From Siphonodentalium dalli (Eukaryota; Mollusca; Scaphopoda; Gadilida; Siphonodentaliidae): 64,000 nucleotides of DNA. Below the pieces are notes generated by a model, which saw only the letters and a program-made list of their open reading frames with translations, made no database searches and was not told where the DNA came from. This document shows positions 644 to 17,311 of the stretch, piece after piece (within the stretch, counting starts at the first letter, position 1; every line of letters starts with the position of its first letter). The stretch spans positions 109,706,278 to 109,770,277 of the forward strand of contig CP136069.1 in the NCBI GenBank assembly GCA_032622095.1. The letters are read 5' to 3'. Position numbers and translations under genes: made by a program.

Positions 644-900
644 ATGAATAACGTTACTCATACGAACGAAGAGTGTTTCACTTGTACAAAATTACTGATT
701 ACAACACGAATGCACTGAGCCTTGAAATTTATATTCCACATCTTCCTTAAATGTCCCAACAGATACAGCCATAGGCATAGTTTTATGCTCGTCCTAATTG
801 GTGATCCATAGACATCTATGCTGAATGATACTTTTCGACATTAATGTGAACTCAATATTTTATCTCACAATGTACAAACGTTTATGCTATCGCCTTCGGT
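644..900 (+). repeat. Left terminal inverted repeat, inner part
   Basis: It matches 17015-17271 in reverse complement over 257 bases with few mismatches; homology stops sharply at 900 (17015 on the right). No gene is seen in it. Confidence 0.88.
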
Positions 901-2995: not shown

Positions 2996-3725
2996 CTAGA
3001 AGGTGACCCGACTTCGTCCGGGCTATTCAAAAACCAAATTTCAAGTCGATTGCTCCACCCGTTTCCTAGATCTGGTCTGCGCATGCGCGAAGCTGGTGTC
3101 GCACGTGCTCGGCGACCCGATAAAATTCGTTTCCGGGGCAAGATACATTCACATACCAAATTTCAAGTCGATAGCTACACCCGTTTCCGAGATATATAGC
3201 CCAATGTCATTTGCGGATACCTCGGCCGGTGATGAGTTAACGCGACACAGTCAAATGCATCGGCAGGGTGAGAGTTAACGTAATCTAACTTTATGACCTC
3301 TGACGACGTCATAGAAATTACGCATTGATTTTATCCCGATAAAAGCATTGTACCACTTGTACCTAATAATTGAGGCAGATAACTAAAACGGATACATACA
3401 TATTATATATCGTTGGAAAGATGAAGCCACACAGATTCTAACCGTGCAAATTATATGACTGGCAATTTATTATTCGCGCTATATCGAATCGATTTGTGAG
3501 CACCGAACTGAAATATATTAGCGCAAAAACGGCGTAAAAATAGATTTGACCTCCGCACGTGAAAAGTTGACCTCACACGGACAAATAAATATGCCTATGT
3601 TCGTCTCCGGCCGAAAATACCCTAAAATACCAAATTTCATCGAAATTGGCTTAGTCGTTTTCGAGTCCATCGATTTCAAACACACAAACAAACACATACA
3701 CACACAGATCTTTCAAAATATATAA
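2996..3725 (+). mobile_element. Retroposon-like insertion (LINE/SINE-tail type), unclassified
   Basis: This 730 bp segment separates the end of one 452 bp repeat unit (2933-2995) from the start of the next (3728), so it inserted into that array. It carries three related copies of a CAAATTTCAAGTCGAT-type phrase (near 3039, 3158 and 3633) and ends in a CA-rich tract, ACACACAAACAAACACATAC, then an AT-rich tail. That layout resembles 3' ends of non-LTR retroposons common in invertebrates. Short TTAGA/ATAGA flanks may be target duplication. The ORF inside is short and not convincing. Confidence 0.5.
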
Positions 3726-3727
3726 TA

Positions 3728-5045
3728 GATTATCGAGGAACGCTCTTTAGCTGTTACTTTATCTGCGTGTGAGATTACCATATAACAATTACATACTTGA
3801 ATTCGACCAAAGTTAAGGGTCTCAATATTAAAATTCAACTAAACTGAGTCACAGATGTTAAACCGAGTAATTAACTTTTTTTTAATTCTTGACACATTGA
3901 AAATGTGTAACATATTTTTTGTGAAAAGAGTTTTGTAATTGTTATATGGTAAACTAACATAATATATAATTTTTAACTTTATTGAACTTGATATCTGCGT
4001 GCTTGAATCGTCAACGATAGAGGCTATATGTCGATGGTCTGATCATCATACATTTTTAATATTGACACGTAGATTGGAACGAGTAATTTTTAGGGTCAAC
4101 ACACAAACAATATTAATACGTCAACGCTCTTTATTATCGGCGCGCATAAGTAGAGACGCTCTTTTATTTTTAAAATTATATTAGATTATCGAGGAACGCT
4201 CTTTAGCTGTTACTTTATCTGCGTGTGAGATTACCATATAACGATTACATACTTGAATTCGACCAAAGTTAAGGGTCTCAATATTAAAATTCAACTAAAC
4301 TGAGTCACAGATGTTAAACCGAGTAATTAACTTTTAATTCTTGACACATTGAATATGTGTAACATATTTTTTGTGAAAAGAGCTTTGTAATTGTTATATG
4401 GTAAACTAACATAATATATAATTTTTAACTTTATTGAACTTGATATCTGCGTGCTTGAATCGTCAACGATAGAGGCTATATGTCGATGGTCTGATCATCA
4501 TACATTTTTAATATTGACACGTAGATTGGAACGAGTAATTTTTAGGGTCAACACACAAACAATAGTAATACGTCAACGCTCTTTATTATCGGCGCGCATA
4601 AGTAGAGACGCTCTTTTATTTTTAAAATTATATTAGATTATCGAGGAACGCTCTTTAGCTGTTACTTTATCTGCGTGTGAGATTACCATATAACAATTAC
4701 ATACTTGAATTCGACCAAAGTTAAGGGTCTCAATATTAAAATTCAACTAAACTGAGTCACAGATGTTAAACCGAGTAATTAACTTTTAATTCTTGACACA
4801 TTGAAAATGTGTAACATATTTTTTGTGAAAAGAGCTTTGTAATTGTTATATGGTAAACTAACATAATATATAATTTTTAACTATATTGAACTTGGTATCA
4901 GCGTGCTTGAATCGTCAACGATACAGGCTATATGTCGATGGTCTGATCATCATACATTTTTAATATTGACACGTAGATTGGAACGAGTAATTTTTAGGGT
5001 CAACCCACAAACAATAGTAATACGTCAACGCTCTTTATTAACGTT
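3728..5045 (+). repeat. Three tandem 452-456 bp repeats inside the polymerase gene
   Basis: Units start at GATTATCGAGG at 3728, 4184 and 4636, giving periods of 456 and 452; the first has extra T residues. The third stops near 5040, where the shared unit end would continue. The last about 63 bases of an earlier unit survive at 2933-2995. Each unit contains AACGCTCTTTA twice. A 61-64 residue ORF recurs in each copy at the same offset; I take it as a by-product of repetition. Confidence 0.92.
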
Positions 5046-5161
5046 GAACCTATACCAAAACATTTTTTTTTTAAATAATTATCTGAACAAAGTGTAGACG
5101 TTTATTTTGTTTTTATTATCAATAAAGCTAGAGGTTAAAACGTTCAATTATTACTTTTCAG

Positions 5162-7986
5162 AACTGTTTAAAAACATGGTGCGGAAAAGTTCAGCATACA
5201 CCCATTTCCTCGTCGCCCAAACAGCTTGCTACGAATGCATGCATGAATCGCTGGAAACGAAACCGAACTGTAGAAATTGCGGTCCTTTATGTGATGCTTG
5301 TAACGACGGTGATGCGAAGAAGAAGAAGAAGAATGACCGAAATTTATGTCCGGATACATGCGGACTCCGTGAGGTTATATTTAGCGGTCATGATACCGGT
5401 GAAAAGTTTGGAAAATGGTTATTCTCTGAACAACATACGGGATTCATAGCACTGGCTCACAACTTCAAGGGTTACGATGGATATTTTCTCATGGAATATC
5501 TCATTGATCAATCATTGAGACCCAAAGTTATATATAATGGATCCAAATTGATGTACCTATACGTGGAAAAAGATCTTCATATCAAAGTACTGGACAGTCT
5601 CAGCTTTCTACCAATGAAGCTGGCACTGTTACCAAAAACATTCGGTCTTGATGGCGAGAAAAAAGGATGGTTCCCACACTTTTTCAATAAACCAGCCAAC
5701 CAGAATTATGAAGGACCCTATCCGGATGCCAAATATTACGGTGCTGATTATATGGGTGTGGCTGAACGAAAAGACTTCACGAAGTGGCACGCGGCTCAAA
5801 CAAATGCAGTTTTCATCTTCAAGAAAGAATTATCGGATTATTGTCGTAGTGATGTCAATATTTTGAGACAAGCTTGCATAAAATTCAGAACCCACATCAT
5901 GAACGCGACTGGAAATATACAACCCGTAATTGACGAGTTTTCTGGCGATATGAAGTTCAAACTGGTTGGTGCCGTTGATCCATTCCAATACGTTACCATC
6001 GCATCGGTATGTATGGGGATATTCAGAACGAAGTTCGTCGACGAGGAATGGAGAGTGCGCCTAAGTACCGAAGGGAAAACGTGGCTTCCAGCTAAATGTA
6101 AAGATGGAACTTTGTCGATTTTATACAAAGGTGAATGGGTTCAAGAAACAAAACTTGAAGATGAACGCGACGTACAAATTCGAGAGAAAGAATTTCTCAA
6201 ATCACAGATAGCTCGCGTCCCCAAGACATCATATAAAGATCAATACAGCAAAAGTTCGATTCAATGGCTGGAATGGATGATGTTCAAAGATAAAATCCAC
6301 ATAACTCACGCTTTGAACGGCCGTGAAAAGAAACTCGATGGTGCAAAGTACAGATTGGATGGATATTGTGAAGAGTTAAACACGACATTCAAATTTCACG
6401 GATGTCAATTCCATGGATGTGAACTTTGTCTGAGTCACGATAGAGACGTAGTCAAGAATCCGATAACCAACCAGACACCTAATGAATTATACGGACTGAC
6501 ACAGAAAAAGAAGAAGTATATAGAAAGTCGAGGCCTGAAATATGTGTGCATTTGGGAACACGAGTTCGTCGCTGCCCAAAAGACTAATCCGGAGCTTCGT
6601 GATTTCATTACTAGTTTGGACATTGTTGAACGACTAGAGCCTAGAGACAGTTTCTTCGGCGGCAGAACGAATGCAACTAAATTACACTACAAAGCTGACG
6701 TTGGTGAGAAAATACACTATTTTGACTTCACGTCGCTCTATCCAACTGTGCTCAAATACGCTCGATACCCGATTGGACACCCGAAAATCATTTTGGGCGA
6801 TGACATTACAGAACTTAATGATTACTTCGGAATAGCTCAAGTCAAGATTTTACCACCTAATAGACTCTATCACCCCGTATTACCGTATCGATCCAACGGT
6901 AAACTGAAGTTTCCACTGTGCAGGACTTGTGCTGATAATGAAAATCAACGACCTTGCACGTGTACGTGCCAACAGAGAGCTATGACTGGTGTTTGGTGTA
7001 TTCCTGACCTGGAGACAGCTATCAAAGTAGGATACAAGATTCTCAAAATATATGAAATATACCATTGGACCGAAACGTCAGACTATGGACAACAAAATGG
7101 ATTATTCACTGAATATATAAACACATTCTTAAAGTTCAAGCAGCAGGCTAGCGGTCCTCCGGATTGGATAAAATCTACCGAAGACATGGACAAATACATC
7201 ACAGAGTATAAAGACAACGAAGGTATATTGCTGGACAGAGAAAGCATCGAAAGAAATCCAGGATTACGCCAAATATCCAAGCTGATGCTGAATTCTTTTT
7301 GGGGAAAATGGGGTCAAAACCAGAATTTCAAACAGACCGAATATTTCCATGAATCGGAACAAGACAATCTATTCCAACTCATTTCAAATCCAATGAAACA
7401 AATGGAAAATTTTCATGTCATAACCGATGACATTCTTCAAATGGAGTGGACTTATAGAAATGACTGTGCGCCGTGTGGATCATCGAATAACATATATTTG
7501 GCCACGTTCACGACGTGTCACGCGCGATTAATGTTATATGAAGTTATTCATTCCTTGGGCAGAAGAGTGTTATATTACGACACGGATAGTTGTGTATTCA
7601 GCAGCACCGAGGATCAAATTAATCCCCCACTGGGTGACTATTTGGGACAGTTGACTAGTGAGCTAGACCCGGATGAATACATCGAGGAATTTGTTTCTGG
7701 AGGACCCAAGAATTACGCTTATAGAACCAATAAAGCTAAAGAGACGTGTAAAGTTCTGGTTTTATCTTTGAACTTCGAAAATTCAAAGTTCATCAATTTC
7801 AACACGATTAAAGATCTGTTAGAATCCAGAAGTACAGTGCCCATCACCACAACCAATCCTCGAAAAATATGCAGGTCCAAAGGAAAAAGATAATTATATA
7901 ACAGATCTGAGGAGAAGCAGTACCGAGTTGTGTATACAAAACGCAGACGCCTGGATAACCTGGATACTCTGCCATATGGATATTGA
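5162..7986 (+). pseudogene. polB: Protein-primed DNA polymerase B, catalytic portion (Exo II to Pol C), stop-interrupted
   Basis: This part has the exonuclease and polymerase core of a protein-primed family B polymerase. Visible motifs in order: Exo II HNFKGYDGYF (5458), Exo III YCRSDVNIL (about 5838), Pol A DFTSLYPTV (6724), Pol B LMLNSFWGKWG (about 7285) and Pol C YYDTDS with both aspartates (7579-7587). Catalytic residues look intact. Just after the splice-like junction the reading frame changes near 5205. A TAA at 7891-7893 cuts the frame, yet the same frame continues to a family-typical C-terminus ending TLPYGY and TGA at 7984-7986. I therefore extend the gene past the stop and call it a pseudogene. 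A cysteine cluster lies near 5235-5320. Confidence 0.9.
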
Positions 7987-8075: not shown

Positions 8076-8159
8076 ATCGGATTATACTAAGGCGTGTTCA
8101 GACACGTTCGATGTTAGATAACATCGAGCGTGCCTGAACACGTATTACTATAATCCGAT
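8076..8159. promoter_or_regulatory. 84 bp near-palindrome with GTTCAGACACG arms
   Basis: The two arms pair around a centre between 8117 and 8118 (GATGTTA/TAACATC at the core, TCGGATTATA/TATAATCCGA at the ends) with few mismatches. Its left arm, 8094-8117, is nearly the same as the reverse complement of 16971-16995, upstream of the right-arm genes. It lies about 45 bases before a TATA box. It could be an operator for an element-encoded factor, or a structured replication signal. Confidence 0.65.
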
Positions 8160-8203: not shown

Positions 8204-8209
8204 TATAAA
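8204..8209 (+). promoter_or_regulatory. TATA box for the PC4-like/TBP-like gene pair
   Basis: TATAAA, within ATCTATAAAATGC, stands about 75 bases before a splice donor (8281), and the first coding ATG on the far side of the predicted intron is at 9309. Inferred from sequence and position. Confidence 0.5.
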
Positions 8210-8395
8210 ATGCTACCCAATCCAGTTCACATTTACAAATTCGTTAGTCCTATACTGTGTGTGTGAAACATTCTATACAGGTTAGTTATGAATTAGTTGT
8301 TTTGTCTATCATTGCATTTACCTCCAGTACAGTCTTAACGCTCTTTATACTTATAATATTATATCGGTCTTAAACCAAAAACAAATATGTTTTTT

Positions 8396-8956
8396 TTATT
8401 TTCTCAACGAAGAGTCACCATAATTCCAGATTATTCTGAATGACCAGATTAATTCATTCTCTAATTCTGAAATATATTTCGATTTACTTGTAGAAATGTA
8501 ATCCAAAATCACGCATCTGTTAAGTATTTGTTCAATCGTGAACAGTGTACACGGTTCACGGAGAATGATATATCCGTGAATTATTGTCACTTCTTCAAAA
8601 CTTCTCTGATTGAAAACCCAGTCTCGGTATTCTGCAAATCTCACAAAGTTATCTCCAATAAGTTCACGAATGTCATGTATTTTGTTTTTAGGAACGCCTC
8701 TAAATACCCAGCGATTCGAAAACATTTGATTCAATATATCCTGTAAGAAATCAGTTTCAAATTCAGACCTCGCAATCAAAGATTTCAATCGCTGTACAGG
8801 AAAATATCCTTCATCTATATTCTTCAGTATTATTTTAATTTCTCTTATAAACCAATTGTGTAGTAGTTGTTTTTTTATTTCTGGATTTATAGTTGACATG
8901 TCAATTAGCTGATTGTATATTTTCTCCAGTGTTTCTGCGGGTAGTATTTTCTCCAT
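8396..8956 (-). CDS. Uncharacterised protein, 186 aa, inside predicted UTR intron
   Basis: I do not recognise this family. The frame stays open up to 9301, but upstream of 8956 it runs through the GC-rich minisatellite and gives only Ala/Gly/Pro/Arg-rich repeats, so I choose the ATG at 8956. The remaining protein is mostly helical in character, rich in Ile, Leu, Lys and Glu, with no signal peptide or membrane segment and no catalytic motif that I can name. The stop TAA overlaps an AATAAA signal (8394-8399 read in reverse), as in the TBP-like gene, which supports a real 3' end. It is the only minus-strand gene in the left arm, so it may be a later acquisition. Confidence 0.5.
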   Translation of the reverse strand: MEKILPAETLEKIYNQLIDMSTINPEIKKQLLHNWFIREIKIILKNIDEGYFPVQRLKSLIARSEFETDFLQDILNQMFSNRWVFRGVPKNKIHDIRELIGDNFVRFAEYRDWVFNQRSFEEVTIIHGYIILREPCTLFTIEQILNRCVILDYISTSKSKYISELENELIWSFRIIWNYGDSSLRK

Positions 8957-9002
8957 AATGAACTGACTCAATGAATCAATTTTCTTATTCTTATTGAGTA
9001 TG

Positions 9003-9235
9003 CGAGGGAGGGGGCGGACCCCCAGTGCGGGGCGGGCGGACCCCCCAGTGCGGAACCCCAGGGCGGGGCGGGCGGACCCCCCAGTGCGGACCCACAGGGC
9101 GGGCGGGCGGTCCCCCCAGTGCGGACCCCCAGGGCGGGCGGGCGGTCCCCCCAGTGCGGACCCCAGGGCGGGCGGGCGGACCCACAGTGCGGACCCCCAG
9201 GGCGGGCGGGCGGACCCCAGGGCGGGCGGACTCCT
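9003..9235. repeat. GC-rich minisatellite, period about 34-36 bp
   Basis: About six copies of a unit containing CCCCCAGTGCGGACCCC and AGGGCGGGCGGGCGG. Base composition is extremely unlike the AT-rich surroundings. G runs on the plus strand and C runs in the same unit suggest strong secondary structure. Frames through it are open on both strands, but I regard those as spurious. Confidence 0.92.
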
Positions 9236-9308
9236 TTCGGACTTTGTACTCTCGATGTGTAACTGATAAGTAATGTTTGTTTTCTTATTTTCCAGGTTCA
9301 AATAAAAA

Positions 9309-9920
9309 ATGACTGATCAACCCGATGTTGAAGGAAACCAACGGACTGAAACCAACGAGAGAGCATTCCATCCACAATGCTTAGTCCCGTTAGGAAATGA
9401 CATTTTCCTATTTGACGGTCGATTCCTGGGAAACTTGTATATCCACATAAGAGAGTGCGGTGAAGTTTATGCAGGCCAAAAATTTCCGACAAAATCTGGA
9501 ATAACATTAAATCTAAGGAGATTCAAAGAGTTGAAATCTTACCTATCAGATATACATCAAGAAGTGGTCAGTTATCGTACCGGGGAATCCGATGTATTCA
9601 TGAGACGTCATATCGGTGGGAATTTCTTCATTACTATAAAGAGCGGCATCCCGCGTGTTGACATTCGCAGGTATTGGCTGCCTGAACATTCAGATGATTT
9701 GTGTGCAACCAAATACGGAATATCTCTGACATTCGACCAATTTGAAGAACTAGCTGGAGCTATATTCGTCCTGTGTGCTAATATTCCTGAAATTGATCAG
9801 ACTGTGCAGTGTTATTTGACCGACGATCACCAAAACCAGGAAGGATCTTTAAGATGTATGGAATGCTGCCCCAACGGTGATAGAACATGTTTGATTAACC
9901 GGATGCAGACATTGATCTAA
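9309..9920 (+). CDS. PC4-like protein with two PC4 domains (ssDNA-binding / transcription coactivator type)
   Basis: The 203-residue protein contains two segments with the PC4/Sub1 pattern (strands around an IR.Y/IREC core, then a GI.L motif, then a helix with F/W..L). The first is at about 31-86 (IHIRECGEVY, PTKSGITLN, RFKELKSYLSDI) and the second at about 98-166 (VDIRRYWLPE, KYGISLTFDQFEEL, then a helix). The second is the clearer match. PC4 proteins bind single-stranded DNA and assist RNA polymerase II initiation; in viruses such folds can also serve replication. A cysteine cluster, CMECC with C194, closes the protein. The ATG at 9309 follows a strong splice acceptor. The TBP-like gene starts 11 bases after the stop, so the two are probably co-expressed. 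The family call rests on pattern only. Confidence 0.72.
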   Translation: MTDQPDVEGNQRTETNERAFHPQCLVPLGNDIFLFDGRFLGNLYIHIRECGEVYAGQKFPTKSGITLNLRRFKELKSYLSDIHQEVVSYRTGESDVFMRRHIGGNFFITIKSGIPRVDIRRYWLPEHSDDLCATKYGISLTFDQFEELAGAIFVLCANIPEIDQTVQCYLTDDHQNQEGSLRCMECCPNGDRTCLINRMQTLI

Positions 9921-9931
9921 ACATTACTCCT

Positions 9932-10456
9932 ATGATGCTACGAAAAACTAATGTCGTATGTTCTGCAGATTTGAACTGTTCTATTAATCTAAGGGATTTG
10001 ACACTCGGCTGTTCGAACATTGAATACAATTCCAAAAAGTTTAGCGGAGTTGTATGGAAACATTCTAAATTCGGTGGATGTTGCCTCGTGTTTAACACGG
10101 GTAAAATTTGTGTTAACGGGCGTTCTGATAATGTCAAACAGACACGCGTTCGACTGCGTCGATACGCTCGACATATTCAAAAATGTGGTTGGCGAGTGAG
10201 ATTACATTGCATAAAAATTTTGACAATGTCTGCATTTTGTCAGTTAAATGGAAAACTTGACTTAAACGTTTTAGTGAAACTTATGGAATGTTCTTACGAA
10301 TCAGAGCTGTTCCCTGCGGCAATGTTCAGACGTGAGAAAATACATTTTACATGCTTTCATAATGGAAAAATTGTGATTACAGGCATTAAAAGTGAAAAGC
10401 AGATGTTAAATATTGTATATCCTACTATATGTGAACTTGAATTACTTTCAGAATAA
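9932..10456 (+). CDS. TATA-box-binding protein (TBP)-like protein
   Basis: The 174-residue protein looks like a complete two-repeat TBP core. Repeat 1 (about 6-90) has NVVCSADLNCSINL, SKKFSGVVWK, LVFNTGKICVNG and RRYARHIQKCGW. Repeat 2 (about 91-170) has SYESELFPAAMFR, CFHNGKIVITGIKSE and IYP-like VYPTI near the end. The four phenylalanines that kink TATA DNA in known TBPs have counterparts here at F37, F54, F127 and F142. Length is close to the conserved TBP core, with no N-terminal extension. It follows the PC4-like gene by 11 bases with no room for its own promoter, so translation from a dicistronic or alternatively processed transcript is likely. The TAA overlaps AATAAA. The frame is intact, unlike most other genes here. 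It could direct transcription of the element's own TATA promoters; that is inference. Confidence 0.85.
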   Translation: MMLRKTNVVCSADLNCSINLRDLTLGCSNIEYNSKKFSGVVWKHSKFGGCCLVFNTGKICVNGRSDNVKQTRVRLRRYARHIQKCGWRVRLHCIKILTMSAFCQLNGKLDLNVLVKLMECSYESELFPAAMFRREKIHFTCFHNGKIVITGIKSEKQMLNIVYPTICELELLSE

Positions 10457-10759: not shown

Positions 10760-11206
10760 TTACAGAATATATTTCAACATAAAATCCTTATTAATTAAAT
10801 CATTATACATATAATTATTGGCACTGAAACGCCTCATTATATTTTCTAGACTGTATCCACACAGTTTATAGAATGCAAAGTTTATGCAATAGGGACCGCA
10901 TATATTAGAACCCTGTAATCTGTAATCATTACACTCGTAACGAGGTCCATTCAATAACAACACGTGTTTAAATCGTCCGTTGTAACACTCGGGTTTTAAC
11001 CCCATAGGGTCGAAGAACTCTGATAGTTTATGTTCATGGAATATCATCAATGTCCAGTGGCGTCCAGGTTGGCTACTCTCGTCAGTGTTAACTATATACA
11101 TCCGGGGATATTGGATATAAAGAGGTAATTTGTCTATGGGACAAACATCTATCTCATTATGGTTTGTGAAACTATTTATCGCCCTCATGAGTCCGCGTGT
11201 ATTCAT
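10760..11206 (-). CDS. Adenain-like cysteine protease (Polinton PRO)
   Basis: The 148-residue protein has the C5/Ulp1-type protease order of catalytic residues: H50 in GRHWTL, D66 in FFDPMG, Q98 in LQGS and C103 in NICGPYC. In adenovirus and Polintons this enzyme cleaves capsid precursors during virion maturation. The length is close to, though a little below, the family's usual 150-200 residues. Its ATG overlaps the stop of the upstream capsid gene as TAATG at 11206, suggesting coupled expression. The frame is intact. Confidence 0.88.
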   Translation of the reverse strand: MNTRGLMRAINSFTNHNEIDVCPIDKLPLYIQYPRMYIVNTDESSQPGRHWTLMIFHEHKLSEFFDPMGLKPECYNGRFKHVLLLNGPRYECNDYRLQGSNICGPYCINFAFYKLCGYSLENIMRRFSANNYMYNDLINKDFMLKYIL

Positions 11207-12287
11207 TATTCAATGCAAACTTTACGACTCTCGTCAACTTTGAGAGCGGCAGGAAATTTGGCATAAACAATTACCGTACAATTGTCTTTCAAAGCCGATG
11301 AGAATTTAATCTCAAGGCGTGTGTGACCTTTCTGAGGTATAACTCTATCGTGATTACGAAGTTGCATCCAAAAGTCGCAAAGTTGAACGGGTTCTTATCG
11401 CGTGAACCGCTTTCAGCCTTTGATGATACTAAGCCAATAATACATCTACTAGGTACGTCTCCTTGAAATAGATTATCTTCTCCCAAACTGAATGCACCTT
11501 TTGACACTGTATACGTCTTTATGATAGATTTTGAAAAAGGATAACACGCATTCCTTTTCTTGAGTGACTCAGTATGACTGAGTAATACACCAGGGTTAAC
11601 TTTCACAGTCGCTAGTCTCAAATTAGCTTCCTGTATTTTCAACTTGTATGTCTCAGTGGTTCCCGTATACATCAGTCTAAAAACATCTCTCGTCTGCCAG
11701 AATTTTGACGTGAGCGGGAGACCATTTAGTAGTAATTTGTCCTGTTGGAAGAAGTCAAGCTGAATTGATCCCATAATATCCATTATTTGACTAGTACGGG
11801 TTGTTTTGGACCTGTAATACAGGCCAGAGTTCCCGCTTTTCGAATCTGCCAGGTCCATACCACCTGCCGTGTCCTTTTCGAACGCTTGTCCATGTAGCTG
11901 TTCCTTACGTTCAGTTTCCAAGAGTACATCGAAATATGCTTTGTATGGATAATTCGGACCGACTTGACTCACGGGAACTTGCTGTATATTCAAATCGATC
12001 TGCGAAAATATTGAATGTAGGGGTGCATTTATCAGACCCACATCGTCATTAACGGTTAGAGCCGAACCATCTTGCTTGGTTATTTTGAGTTTGAGAAGTA
12101 GCAATGTGCGTTTGAGGTCCATGTAGGTTGTGGCCATGGCGGGAATATTGAACTCTAAAGCTGCAGTGTCTGTCAGCTGATTCACGGGTCTGTAATTTAT
12201 CCATTCTGTCGATTGTATTCCACTGTCAACCGCCGGCGATTCAAATAATGCCAATTTATCGGTATGGTACTCTCTGTATTCATTCAT
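11206..12287 (-). pseudogene. Major capsid protein (double jelly-roll, hexon-like), frameshifted near C-terminus
   Basis: The protein matches the Polinton major capsid family: an N-terminal region with WINYRPVNQLTDTAALEFNIP, then NYPYKAYFDVLLE and, later, SRCIIGLV. Frame one stops at 11289. However, a neighbouring minus frame continues from about 11340 to a TAA at 11206-11208 and encodes the family's usual ending (TRLEIKF, VIVYAKF). That stop overlaps the protease ATG, so it is the genuine gene end, and a single-base frame change near 11340 is inferred. The start ATG overlaps the stop of the upstream small gene (ATGA at 12284-12287). The length (about 360 codons) is on the short side for this family. 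Confidence 0.85.
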
Positions 12288-13505: not shown

Positions 13506-14612
13506 CGGACTCTAAAATCCATGAATTAAATTTGTCAGGCCATGAATGCCAGTGCACCATGACTTCAGTTTGACCCTTTCGTTTCCTTTTTTTGACAATT
13601 TTATCTATTCTGTAAACTGTTTCGTCATCAACGCGCACCCTTTGAAGTTCTGACTAGTAGAAAGCGCCCTCAATGGCTTCATCCAAGAAATCTGTCAATG
13701 TATACAAGGGTATGTTCTGCCTGTAAAACTTCTTAGTCACTTTGAACAACTCTCCAGTCCATTTCTGAGAATATTCTCGGTCAAAAACTGAATGGTGTGT
13801 GATATTCTAACGATATCATTTACATTGTATTTGAACTTTTTCTTCAATTTACTTTTAACACCTCCCTTCTGTCTTATTAACCACTGATCAAGGCGAGACT
13901 CATCTTCATTCTCAACAGTTATTGAGTCAGGGGTGGTACCCAAAGAACGATGTATTGTATGGTTATAACTTTTCACAATATCTTGTAGAATGTCGATATA
14001 TCTAGCATTATTATGCTTTATCATATAACGTGAAATCTTCTGCTTTATAGTTTTTATGACCCGTTCCGAATAATTGGCTTTCATTTCGTTTTGCGTAAAA
14101 ATTTGAAATATATGAAGATCCTTAAGGTAACTTTTGACCCGTTTGTTTGTGAATTCCGAACCGTGGTCCGTTCGGAGGAGGCGAGGTGTTCTTCCACCTT
14201 CAAATATATGTTTCATAGCATTGATCACATTAATTGCAGTTTTTCTCTTTATAGCTTCGCACCATAGCTTCCTAGAAAAAATGTCAATCATTATTAACAC
14301 GTACGTGTAATTGTCGTTGTCTTTGGAAACATCATTCATATCCATGAGGTCTCCATCCCATTGACTGTCAGAAGCGTTTACAATAACACGAGACCTCGGG
14401 AATTTTCGTCTAACACTTTTTGTTAGGGAATAACTTTCATGATTTTGTAGCCACGCCACAATCTCGCGCTTGGAAATGATGTGCTTATTTTCAGATTTTA
14501 CAGTCTGATGCAACTTTGTAGCTCCTGAGTACGATGCGGGGTGACCCGGATTAAAATAAATTGAACTCAGATAATCTTTCCAATCGGCCATATTGTTCAC
14601 AGCGATATCCAA
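13483..14612 (-). pseudogene. Retroviral-type integrase with C-terminal chromodomain, frameshift and stop
   Basis: The main frame (14612 down to 13737) has the DDE core of the rve family: D88 in QWDGDLMDM, D149 in RTDHGSEF and E183 in ANYSERV, with 33 residues between the last two. This enzyme would insert the element into host DNA. Near 13790 the coding signal moves to another frame, which carries a TAG at 13654-13656 and then a chromodomain-like segment (YRIDKIVKKRKRKGQ, then HWHSWPDKFNSWI) to a TAA at 13483-13485. Polinton integrases commonly end in a chromodomain, so I treat all of it as one broken gene. I do not see an obvious N-terminal HHCC zinc finger. The start overlaps the upstream gene by 16 bases. 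Confidence 0.88.
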
Positions 14613-15359: not shown

Positions 15360-16004
15360 TTATAGGTCTTGGTTGGGAAATACGTCTGTTCGTAGTCTGT
15401 ATTTATCCTCAGTGTGAGGGGACATATCTATTATAAGATACGCAAATGGTTTCTTCATACAATCCTTGTATGCATCAATGAGTACTTTAGATTTACCGGG
15501 ATACAATTGTCTACCCAATGTGGAAATTTGTGATCCATCCCTCAAATTTTTGAATAAAATTAGATATCCTGTGTTTAAGGCTATAGTTCTCGCAGCCTTG
15601 CCTTGTGCGTATAAATGTTGTGAAATAAATAGCACCGAAAGACAGCGATGATGAGTTTGCTGCGTAAATAGTAATTCAATCTCTTTTTGGTCAATAATAC
15701 GATGCATCAAGTCGTCTAATATTAACATATTATGTTTACCATCAGCAATTTCTTCGATTTCTGTTTGGGTAGGTAATCCTTGATGCATGACCAAATTTTC
15801 GATTGATGATTCAATTTCATCATAGAAATTTTGATAAATACCGTAACAGTACATTATTTTCTTAGGTGGATCTCTAGAATACATTCCACTAAGATTTTGT
15901 AGGAATCTGTAGACCCATCTCGTCTTACCAGAACCAGTTGGTCCATTGATGCAAATACTAGAACAAGGTTCAAATGGTATGGCGCTATGGTTAGTTGACC
16001 CCAT
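15360..16004 (-). CDS. FtsK/HerA-type genome-packaging ATPase (A32-like)
   Basis: The 214-residue protein has a Walker A motif, GPTGSGKT (21-28), and a Walker B motif, MLILDDL (93-99, acidic pair D97-D98). Further on, FISQHLYAQGK (about residues 125-135) matches the conserved Q-containing sensor region of the poxvirus A32/Polinton ATPase family. This ATPase drives DNA into the capsid. Length is typical and the frame is intact. The ATG at 16004 is the first after a TATA-like sequence. It heads the cluster that continues through the small proteins, integrase, capsid genes and protease. Confidence 0.92.
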   Translation of the reverse strand: MGSTNHSAIPFEPCSSICINGPTGSGKTRWVYRFLQNLSGMYSRDPPKKIMYCYGIYQNFYDEIESSIENLVMHQGLPTQTEIEEIADGKHNMLILDDLMHRIIDQKEIELLFTQQTHHRCLSVLFISQHLYAQGKAARTIALNTGYLILFKNLRDGSQISTLGRQLYPGKSKVLIDAYKDCMKKPFAYLIIDMSPHTEDKYRLRTDVFPNQDL

Positions 16005-16970: not shown

Positions 16971-16995
16971 CTAAACATCGAACTTGTCTGAACAC
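16971..16995 (-). promoter_or_regulatory. GTGTTCAGACA motif upstream of right-arm promoter
   Basis: Read on the minus strand it matches 8094-8117 with one substitution and one extra base. It lies about 75-95 bases before the TATA-like DNA of the acidic-protein gene. Confidence 0.55.
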
Positions 16996-17014: not shown

Positions 17015-17311
17015 ACCGAAGGCGATAGCATAAACGTTTGTACATTGTGAGATAAAATATTGAGTTCACATTAATGTCGAAAAGTATCATTCAGCATAGA
17101 TGTCTATGGATCACCAATTAGGACGAGCATAAAACTATGCCTATGGCTGTATCTGTTGGGACATTTAAGGAAGATGTGGATTATAAATTTCAAGGCTCAG
17201 TGCATTCGTGTTGTAATCAGTAATTTTGTACAAGTGAAACACTCTTCGTTCGTATGAGTAACTTTATTCATGGATATGGACTGCGTCTGATTGATAAACA
17301 CTGGAATGTAT
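17015..17311 (-). repeat. Right terminal inverted repeat
   Basis: 17015-17271 matches 644-900 and 17275-17311 matches 1-37, both reversed. It is continuous here except for 3 bases, so this side keeps the older arrangement. The repeat may continue past 17311, but the left counterpart lies outside the window. Confidence 0.88.

Follow-up and report, generated by a model that had tools for sequence, protein, structure and literature searches.

A TBP-like gene paired with a PC4-like gene in a Polinton family of the scaphopod Siphonodentalium dalli

The window, by which we mean the whole 64,000-nucleotide stretch of Siphonodentalium dalli DNA analysed (GCA_032622095.1, contig CP136069.1, positions 109,706,278 to 109,770,277, forward strand), contains a Polinton that carries a TBP-like gene. 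The genes and ends of the element are as follows.

644..900, plus strand: part of the left TIR, a further part of which lies at 1-42
5107..7893, plus strand: type B, putatively protein-primed, DNA polymerase (PolB), 928-aa ORF (DNA_pol_B_2, 5.5e-52)
9309..9920, plus strand: PC4-like gene, 203 aa (Pfam PC4, 2.9e-13, two stretches in one chain)
9932..10456, plus strand: TBP-like gene, 174 aa, intronless, open from ATG to stop
10760..11206, minus strand: putative adenain-like protease, 148 aa (Peptidase_C5, E 0.025, below the cut-off)
11289..12287, minus strand: putative major capsid protein (MCP), C-terminal part damaged, 51 relatives
13737..14612, minus strand: retroviral-type integrase (rve, 7.7e-14), frame change near 13800
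15360..16004, minus strand: P-loop protein with weak P-loop matches (e.g. Pox_A32, 0.017), probably a packaging ATPase
17015..17271, minus strand: part of the right TIR, 2/257 mismatches against the left arm

The TIR arms correspond over 257 bp with 2 mismatches, plus a further 37/37, and since part of the left TIR lies at 1-42 the repeat extends out of the window, the element's left end lying beyond it. At 43-643 the left TIR has about 600 bp that are absent from the right TIR and that include a diverged duplicate (77%) of the first ORF's promoter stretch. A tandem 452-bp repeat (2.9 copies, 3711-5040) lies directly upstream of PolB, and the DNA beside the element (from about 17699 to 64000) is satellite in units of about 1.36 kb, alternating from about 41 kb with variants of about 0.92 kb. 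An Rfam scan of the window returned nothing at the gathering threshold. One of the 51 MCP relatives, from Saccostrea, is named 'F54H12.2-like', which we take to be a name for the Polinton MCP, and the window protease matched at 40% the gene that follows MCP in a Solemya velum gill symbiont assembly (L001). The PC4-like gene stops 11 nt before the TBP start codon. Its protein matched PC4 in the PDB at 0.0067, its single-sequence structure model was uninformative (pLDDT 31), and the two PC4 stretches within one chain could form a built-in dimer. The original prediction described most neighbours of the TBP-like gene as broken. Damage is present in MCP (about 60-70 residues missing near the C-terminus and a frame change), in the integrase and in the gene upstream of MCP, which is split into two short pieces in this copy; the description fails for the PC4 (203 aa), protease (148 aa) and 145-aa genes, which are open and, as far as comparisons were made, similar in length to their relatives.

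Analysis of the 174-aa ORF confirmed that it encodes a TBP-family protein. The Pfam TBP model PF00352 matched it in two stretches (E 3.3e-30, 104.2 bits against a cut-off of 22.9), in agreement with the two TBP repeats originally described, and TBPs of the PDB were matched with a best E of 2.8e-23 from the single sequence and 3.9e-34 from the family profile. Structure prediction, one of the checks proposed for the gene, returned the TBP saddle. Residues F37, F54, F127 and F142 align with F99, F116, F190 and F207 of yeast TBP, its DNA-kinking phenylalanines; all four of the counterparts that had been proposed are thus in place. NCBIfam gave matches to archaeal-type TBP models, all below the cut-off. 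A chance ORF was considered as an explanation of the gene and dropped.

A TBP query of the element's genome assembly (2.23 Gb, 9 contigs) gave at least 455 first-look candidates, and the best 150, which were scored, are 94-100% identical and include 4 with a stop; these copy counts are lower bounds and are biased to intact copies. We read 28 copies chosen by TBP (L002-L029, the window's own included). PC4 lies upstream on the same strand in 28/28, although a few copies (L010, L011, L018) have it fragmented or interrupted, and the protease lies downstream on the opposite strand in 26/28, no protease being seen in the approximately 530-545 bases read past TBP in L022 and L023. MCP follows the protease in 8/8 stretches of 3.5 kb. 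The bias of this choice was tested with 40 of about 41 PC4 copies that, sorted by eye from 150 scored, were absent from the TBP list. Each of these 40 has TBP or part of it after PC4; the gene is complete with an open frame in 19 copies, and the other 21 have a broken one. PC4 therefore adjoins TBP or a TBP remnant in 68/68 copies read, which answers whether the same gene stands beside PC4 in other copies. At C2:85770832-85776891, three TBP matches share one orientation and are spaced by about 2.8 kb, which suggests that part of the element is repeated there in tandem.

The original prediction also took the open frame as a possible sign of recent activity or retained use. Openness by itself is a weak argument, because the TIR arms differ at 2/257 positions and 21/40 of the PC4-chosen copies carry a broken TBP, and it was dropped as proof of use; retained use gained its support instead from the contrast between shared and private variants. 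With the window copy as reference, variants in the 67 other copies were classed as shared (at least two copies) or private (one copy). TBP shared variants comprise 16 nonsynonymous to 20 synonymous changes and private variants 69 (5 stops) to 26 (Fisher p 0.0039), with the reservation that shared variants track subfamilies and are not independent events. Against a neutral expectation of 0.725 nonsynonymous or stop, calculated from the window codons with transitions weighted 4x transversions, shared variants are below neutral (p 0.0005) and private variants are at neutral (p 1.0). The contrast is seen in the 40 PC4-chosen copies alone (13:12 shared versus 49:15 private, p 0.039) and is not significant in the 27 TBP-chosen copies alone (12:15 versus 26:19, p 0.33). 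Private variants in those 27 are also below neutral (p 0.043), as expected because a TBP-based choice would remove damage. The PC4 gene, assessed in the TBP-chosen copies, showed 18:26 shared versus 39:22 private variants (p 0.029). The proposed dN/dS comparison across copies gave a pairwise NG86 value of 0.25 for TBP (276 pairs of 24 distinct copies, all TBP-chosen). The plain reading of these results is that protein changes are purged while the element spreads and that integrated copies then decay freely. The TBP gene thus appears to be maintained during spread, which suggests that the element steers the host gene-reading machinery to its own genes.

Residue conservation was counted over 125 family members including the window's copy (effective number about 56). 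The kinking positions are Phe in 111, 121, 122 and 84 of 125 members, the fourth being His in 36/125. In the numbering of yeast TBP, and at its base-reading positions, repeat 1 retains N69 in 122/125 members and V71 in 117/125 with T124 changed to Asn in 102/125, while in repeat 2 N159 is Thr in 123/125, V161 is Ser in 121/125 and T215 is kept in 119/125. The canonical Asn/Val pair is thus present in repeat 1 and replaced in repeat 2. Because repeat-2 residues that read bases are changed across the family, the preferred site of the element TBP probably departs from the standard TATA box. The two TFIIB-contact glutamates (E123 and E125 in the C lobe of the window copy) are retained, E186 in 111/125 (Asp in 7 more) and E188 in 120/125 (Asp in 3 more), and PMC7221094 assigns the TFIIB contact of TBP to these two residues. 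Helix H2 keeps R137 in 117/125 members, R141 in 120/125 and Arg or Lys at K138 in 106/125. The N-lobe stirrup is remade, with Trp at M104 in 117/125, His at I106 in 113/125, and Gly at 110 and 111 in 111/125 and 119/125 (W42, H44 and G48-G49 in the window copy), and with this rebuilding the contact to host TFIIA may have been lost. Measured against random sets of columns, conservation is higher in each of the kink, base-reading and TFIIB sets (65, 100 and 252 of 10000 random sets as low, respectively); the basic H2 set is no more conserved than random sets (2002 of 10000 as low).

In phylogenetic trees the element TBP family, relatives from other sources included, forms one clade at 100/100 (28 to 32 members used). 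As to its origin, and compatibly with any use that the element makes of the protein, the family could go back to an ancient capture, from an animal host, of a divergent lineage of TLF/TBPL1. Metazoan TLF/TRF2/TBPL1 is likewise an alternative TBP and shares an N-terminal NVVC stretch, and two trees group the element family with human TLF (97/80 and 98/96). This placement brings long branches together, two alternatives to it were not rejected (AU p 0.137 each), and human TLF, represented by a single sequence, lacks three of the four kinking Phe that most family members keep. We therefore regard a TLF origin as possible and rather doubtful. When TLF was left out of the tree, the AU test did not reject derivation from animal TBP by an ancient capture (p 0.49 and 0.58).

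The stretch upstream of PC4 contains candidate control signals.

8095..8140, no strand assigned: 21-bp element TGTTCAGACAnGTTCGATGTT as an inverted pair, located some 65-110 bp before the TATA box
8204..8210, plus strand: TATA box (TATAAAA) of a putative PC4-TBP transcription unit
8281..9295, plus strand: predicted 5' UTR intron, CAG/GTTAGT ... TTTTCCAG/GTTC, ending just before PC4
16974..16994, minus strand: 21-bp element, third copy, preceding the rightmost of the minus-strand ORFs listed

Twenty copies, some of them among the 68, were read for this stretch, which was located in 19. TATAAAA is unchanged in 17/18 copies holding it and the intron 5' site in 19/19, a constancy that is weak evidence of constraint because background identity is 92-99%. 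With up to 3 mismatches allowed, the 21-bp element matches the window 3 times, twice exactly and once with 2 mismatches, where 0.01 are expected, for a search pattern that was itself taken from the window sequence. No promoter motif of the capsid genes was identified and TATA-like sequences also stand upstream of other element ORFs, and consequently a separate recognition element is not demonstrated. The predicted intron contains most of a 301-aa minus-strand ORF (8396-9301), the N-terminal part of which crosses a GC-rich 35-bp minisatellite (9014-9218). Pfam gave no match to its 186-aa core, and the other copies read have related stretches.

We favour, with a probability of roughly 0.6, the reading that Polintons of this family regularly carry a gene for a TBP-family protein and that this protein acts as an alternative TBP: expressed from a promoter that the host can read, it would direct the host's TFIIB and Pol II to the element's promoters. 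Since the PC4-TBP unit carries a canonical TATA promoter, host TBP could start its transcription. The element TBP would then bind element promoters, bending the DNA through its conserved Phe, and would recruit host TFIIB and Pol II through the C-lobe Glu, with the PC4-like protein as a coactivator or single-strand binder. Element genes, perhaps the capsid genes, would in this way be favoured over host genes, and the protein could have a late-gene role. More tentatively, we propose that the base-reading face has been rewired asymmetrically, with Asn at both repeat-1 positions and Thr at both repeat-2 positions in most members, and that the protein still docks host TFIIB, making it a promoter-selectivity switch that would work wholly on host Pol II without a polymerase or TFIIB of the element's own.

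The retained TFIIB-contact Glu together with the changed base-reading residues would also suit a protein directed against the host, one that competes for TFIIB or promoters with the host's TBP and dampens host transcription. The greater-than-random conservation of the kink and base-reading sets speaks against such interference, and the pairing with a PC4-family gene fits activation better, making this explanation improbable. We consider still less probable a function in the replication or packaging of element DNA, in which TBP would bend origin or terminal DNA alongside a PC4-type single-strand binder and take no part in transcription. Both proteins belong to DNA-binding families and the 21-bp element is present both upstream of PC4-TBP and close to the right end, but this function gives no reason for keeping the TFIIB Glu within YEPELFP.

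The element TBP is distinct from that of the host. A human TBP query of the genome identified one exon at C6:155354090 with 92% identity, below which came 149 element-like matches at 32-34%. Within 30 kb read at this locus, four exon pieces are spread over about 11 kb, three of which, with lengths of 61, 35 and 34 residues, share 91-92% identity with human TBP, the fourth (16 residues) sharing 69%. Host TBP is therefore a different, intron-containing gene on C6. A recent retrocopy of host TBP caught in one element, with which an intronless gene of the TBP family would agree, was rejected, since host TBP is spliced and 91-92% identical to human versus 32-34% for the element copies, and the element family forms its own clade with many other copies. 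The original proposal of an intact TBP-like gene within a Polinton is supported, neither of the refuting outcomes named with it having occurred: the saddle is predicted, host TBP is a separate gene, and many copies stand beside PC4.

To our knowledge, gene control in Polintons has hardly been studied. The element shares PolB, integrase and TIRs with animal Polintons/Mavericks and adintoviruses, and probably the protease and MCP. A term search found no TATA/TBP in the main text of the Polinton/adintovirus papers PMC11071308, PMC10120064, PMC4028283, PMC11071296 and PMC8363768, and PC4 was likewise absent from those of them searched for it. The open-licence literature gave no paper with both Polinton and PC4, and no Polinton TBP in print was recognised in searches of open-licence papers. 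TBP or TBP-like proteins are carried by large DNA viruses (Nucleocytoviricota, mirusviruses, and as late factors beta/gammaherpesviruses), as the original prediction had said for some large DNA viruses and as PMC10132985, PMC11410667 and PMC12085832 bear out for large DNA viruses and mirusviruses; PMC10675990 describes TATA-binding proteins in Cymbomonas (algal) elements of putative mirusvirus origin. According to PMC7221094, viral TBPs mostly lack the TFIIB contacts, with C.L3.2 only about 40% conserved and the N-lobe signature not retained, and most such viruses encode their own TFIIB-like protein. The element TBP, in contrast, keeps host-type TFIIB contacts, and Pfam found no TFIIB-like gene among the window ORFs scanned. 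The BFVD viral matches shown are at most 22% identical to it, and absence of a viral family from the fold-search lists does not exclude such a family. With cellular TBP (a TFIID subunit) it shares the two repeats, the predicted saddle, the kinking Phe, the TFIIB Glu and the helix H2 Arg, and differs in its identity of about 30%, the replacement of the repeat-2 base-reading Asn and Val by Thr and Ser, the rebuilt N-lobe stirrup and the absence of a long N-terminal extension. Through a TBP and PC4 cassette, a small virus-like element could redirect host Pol II by a route that is concrete and open to testing, and should the DNA preference prove different, nature would here provide an example of TBP specificity changed with TFIIB docking retained.

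A single-sequence search for relatives of the element TBP returned 25 proteins and a profile search 267, of which the best 120 were examined. No relatives were confirmed in IMG/VR scans with TBP, MCP, PolB and PC4, tblastn of phage records gave none, and PHROGs has no family for TBP. Organisms among the matches listed include Sedimenticola, Ca. Thiodiazotropha taylori, Solemya velum gill symbiont assemblies and Pinctada imbricata. Solemya and Pinctada belong to the bivalves, which also harbour Thiodiazotropha, and the TBP relatives in symbiont assemblies are accordingly likely to be host DNA. Among the proteins named TBP in bivalve and symbiont assemblies, some may therefore be products of element genes rather than of host or bacterial ones. 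One TBP (P0011) and one MCP (P0135) each map to one ENA contig only, which in both cases is exactly 14,476 bases long and so probably the same. GTDB contigs gave none with TBP and one MCP locus, L001, where integrase, MCP and protease are present and no TBP was found in 13.2 kb, nor beyond the protease, which counts against TBP being a universal Polinton gene. The Polinton genes of L001 (1-3989) stand at the end of a symbiont scaffold, as host DNA or a misjoin.
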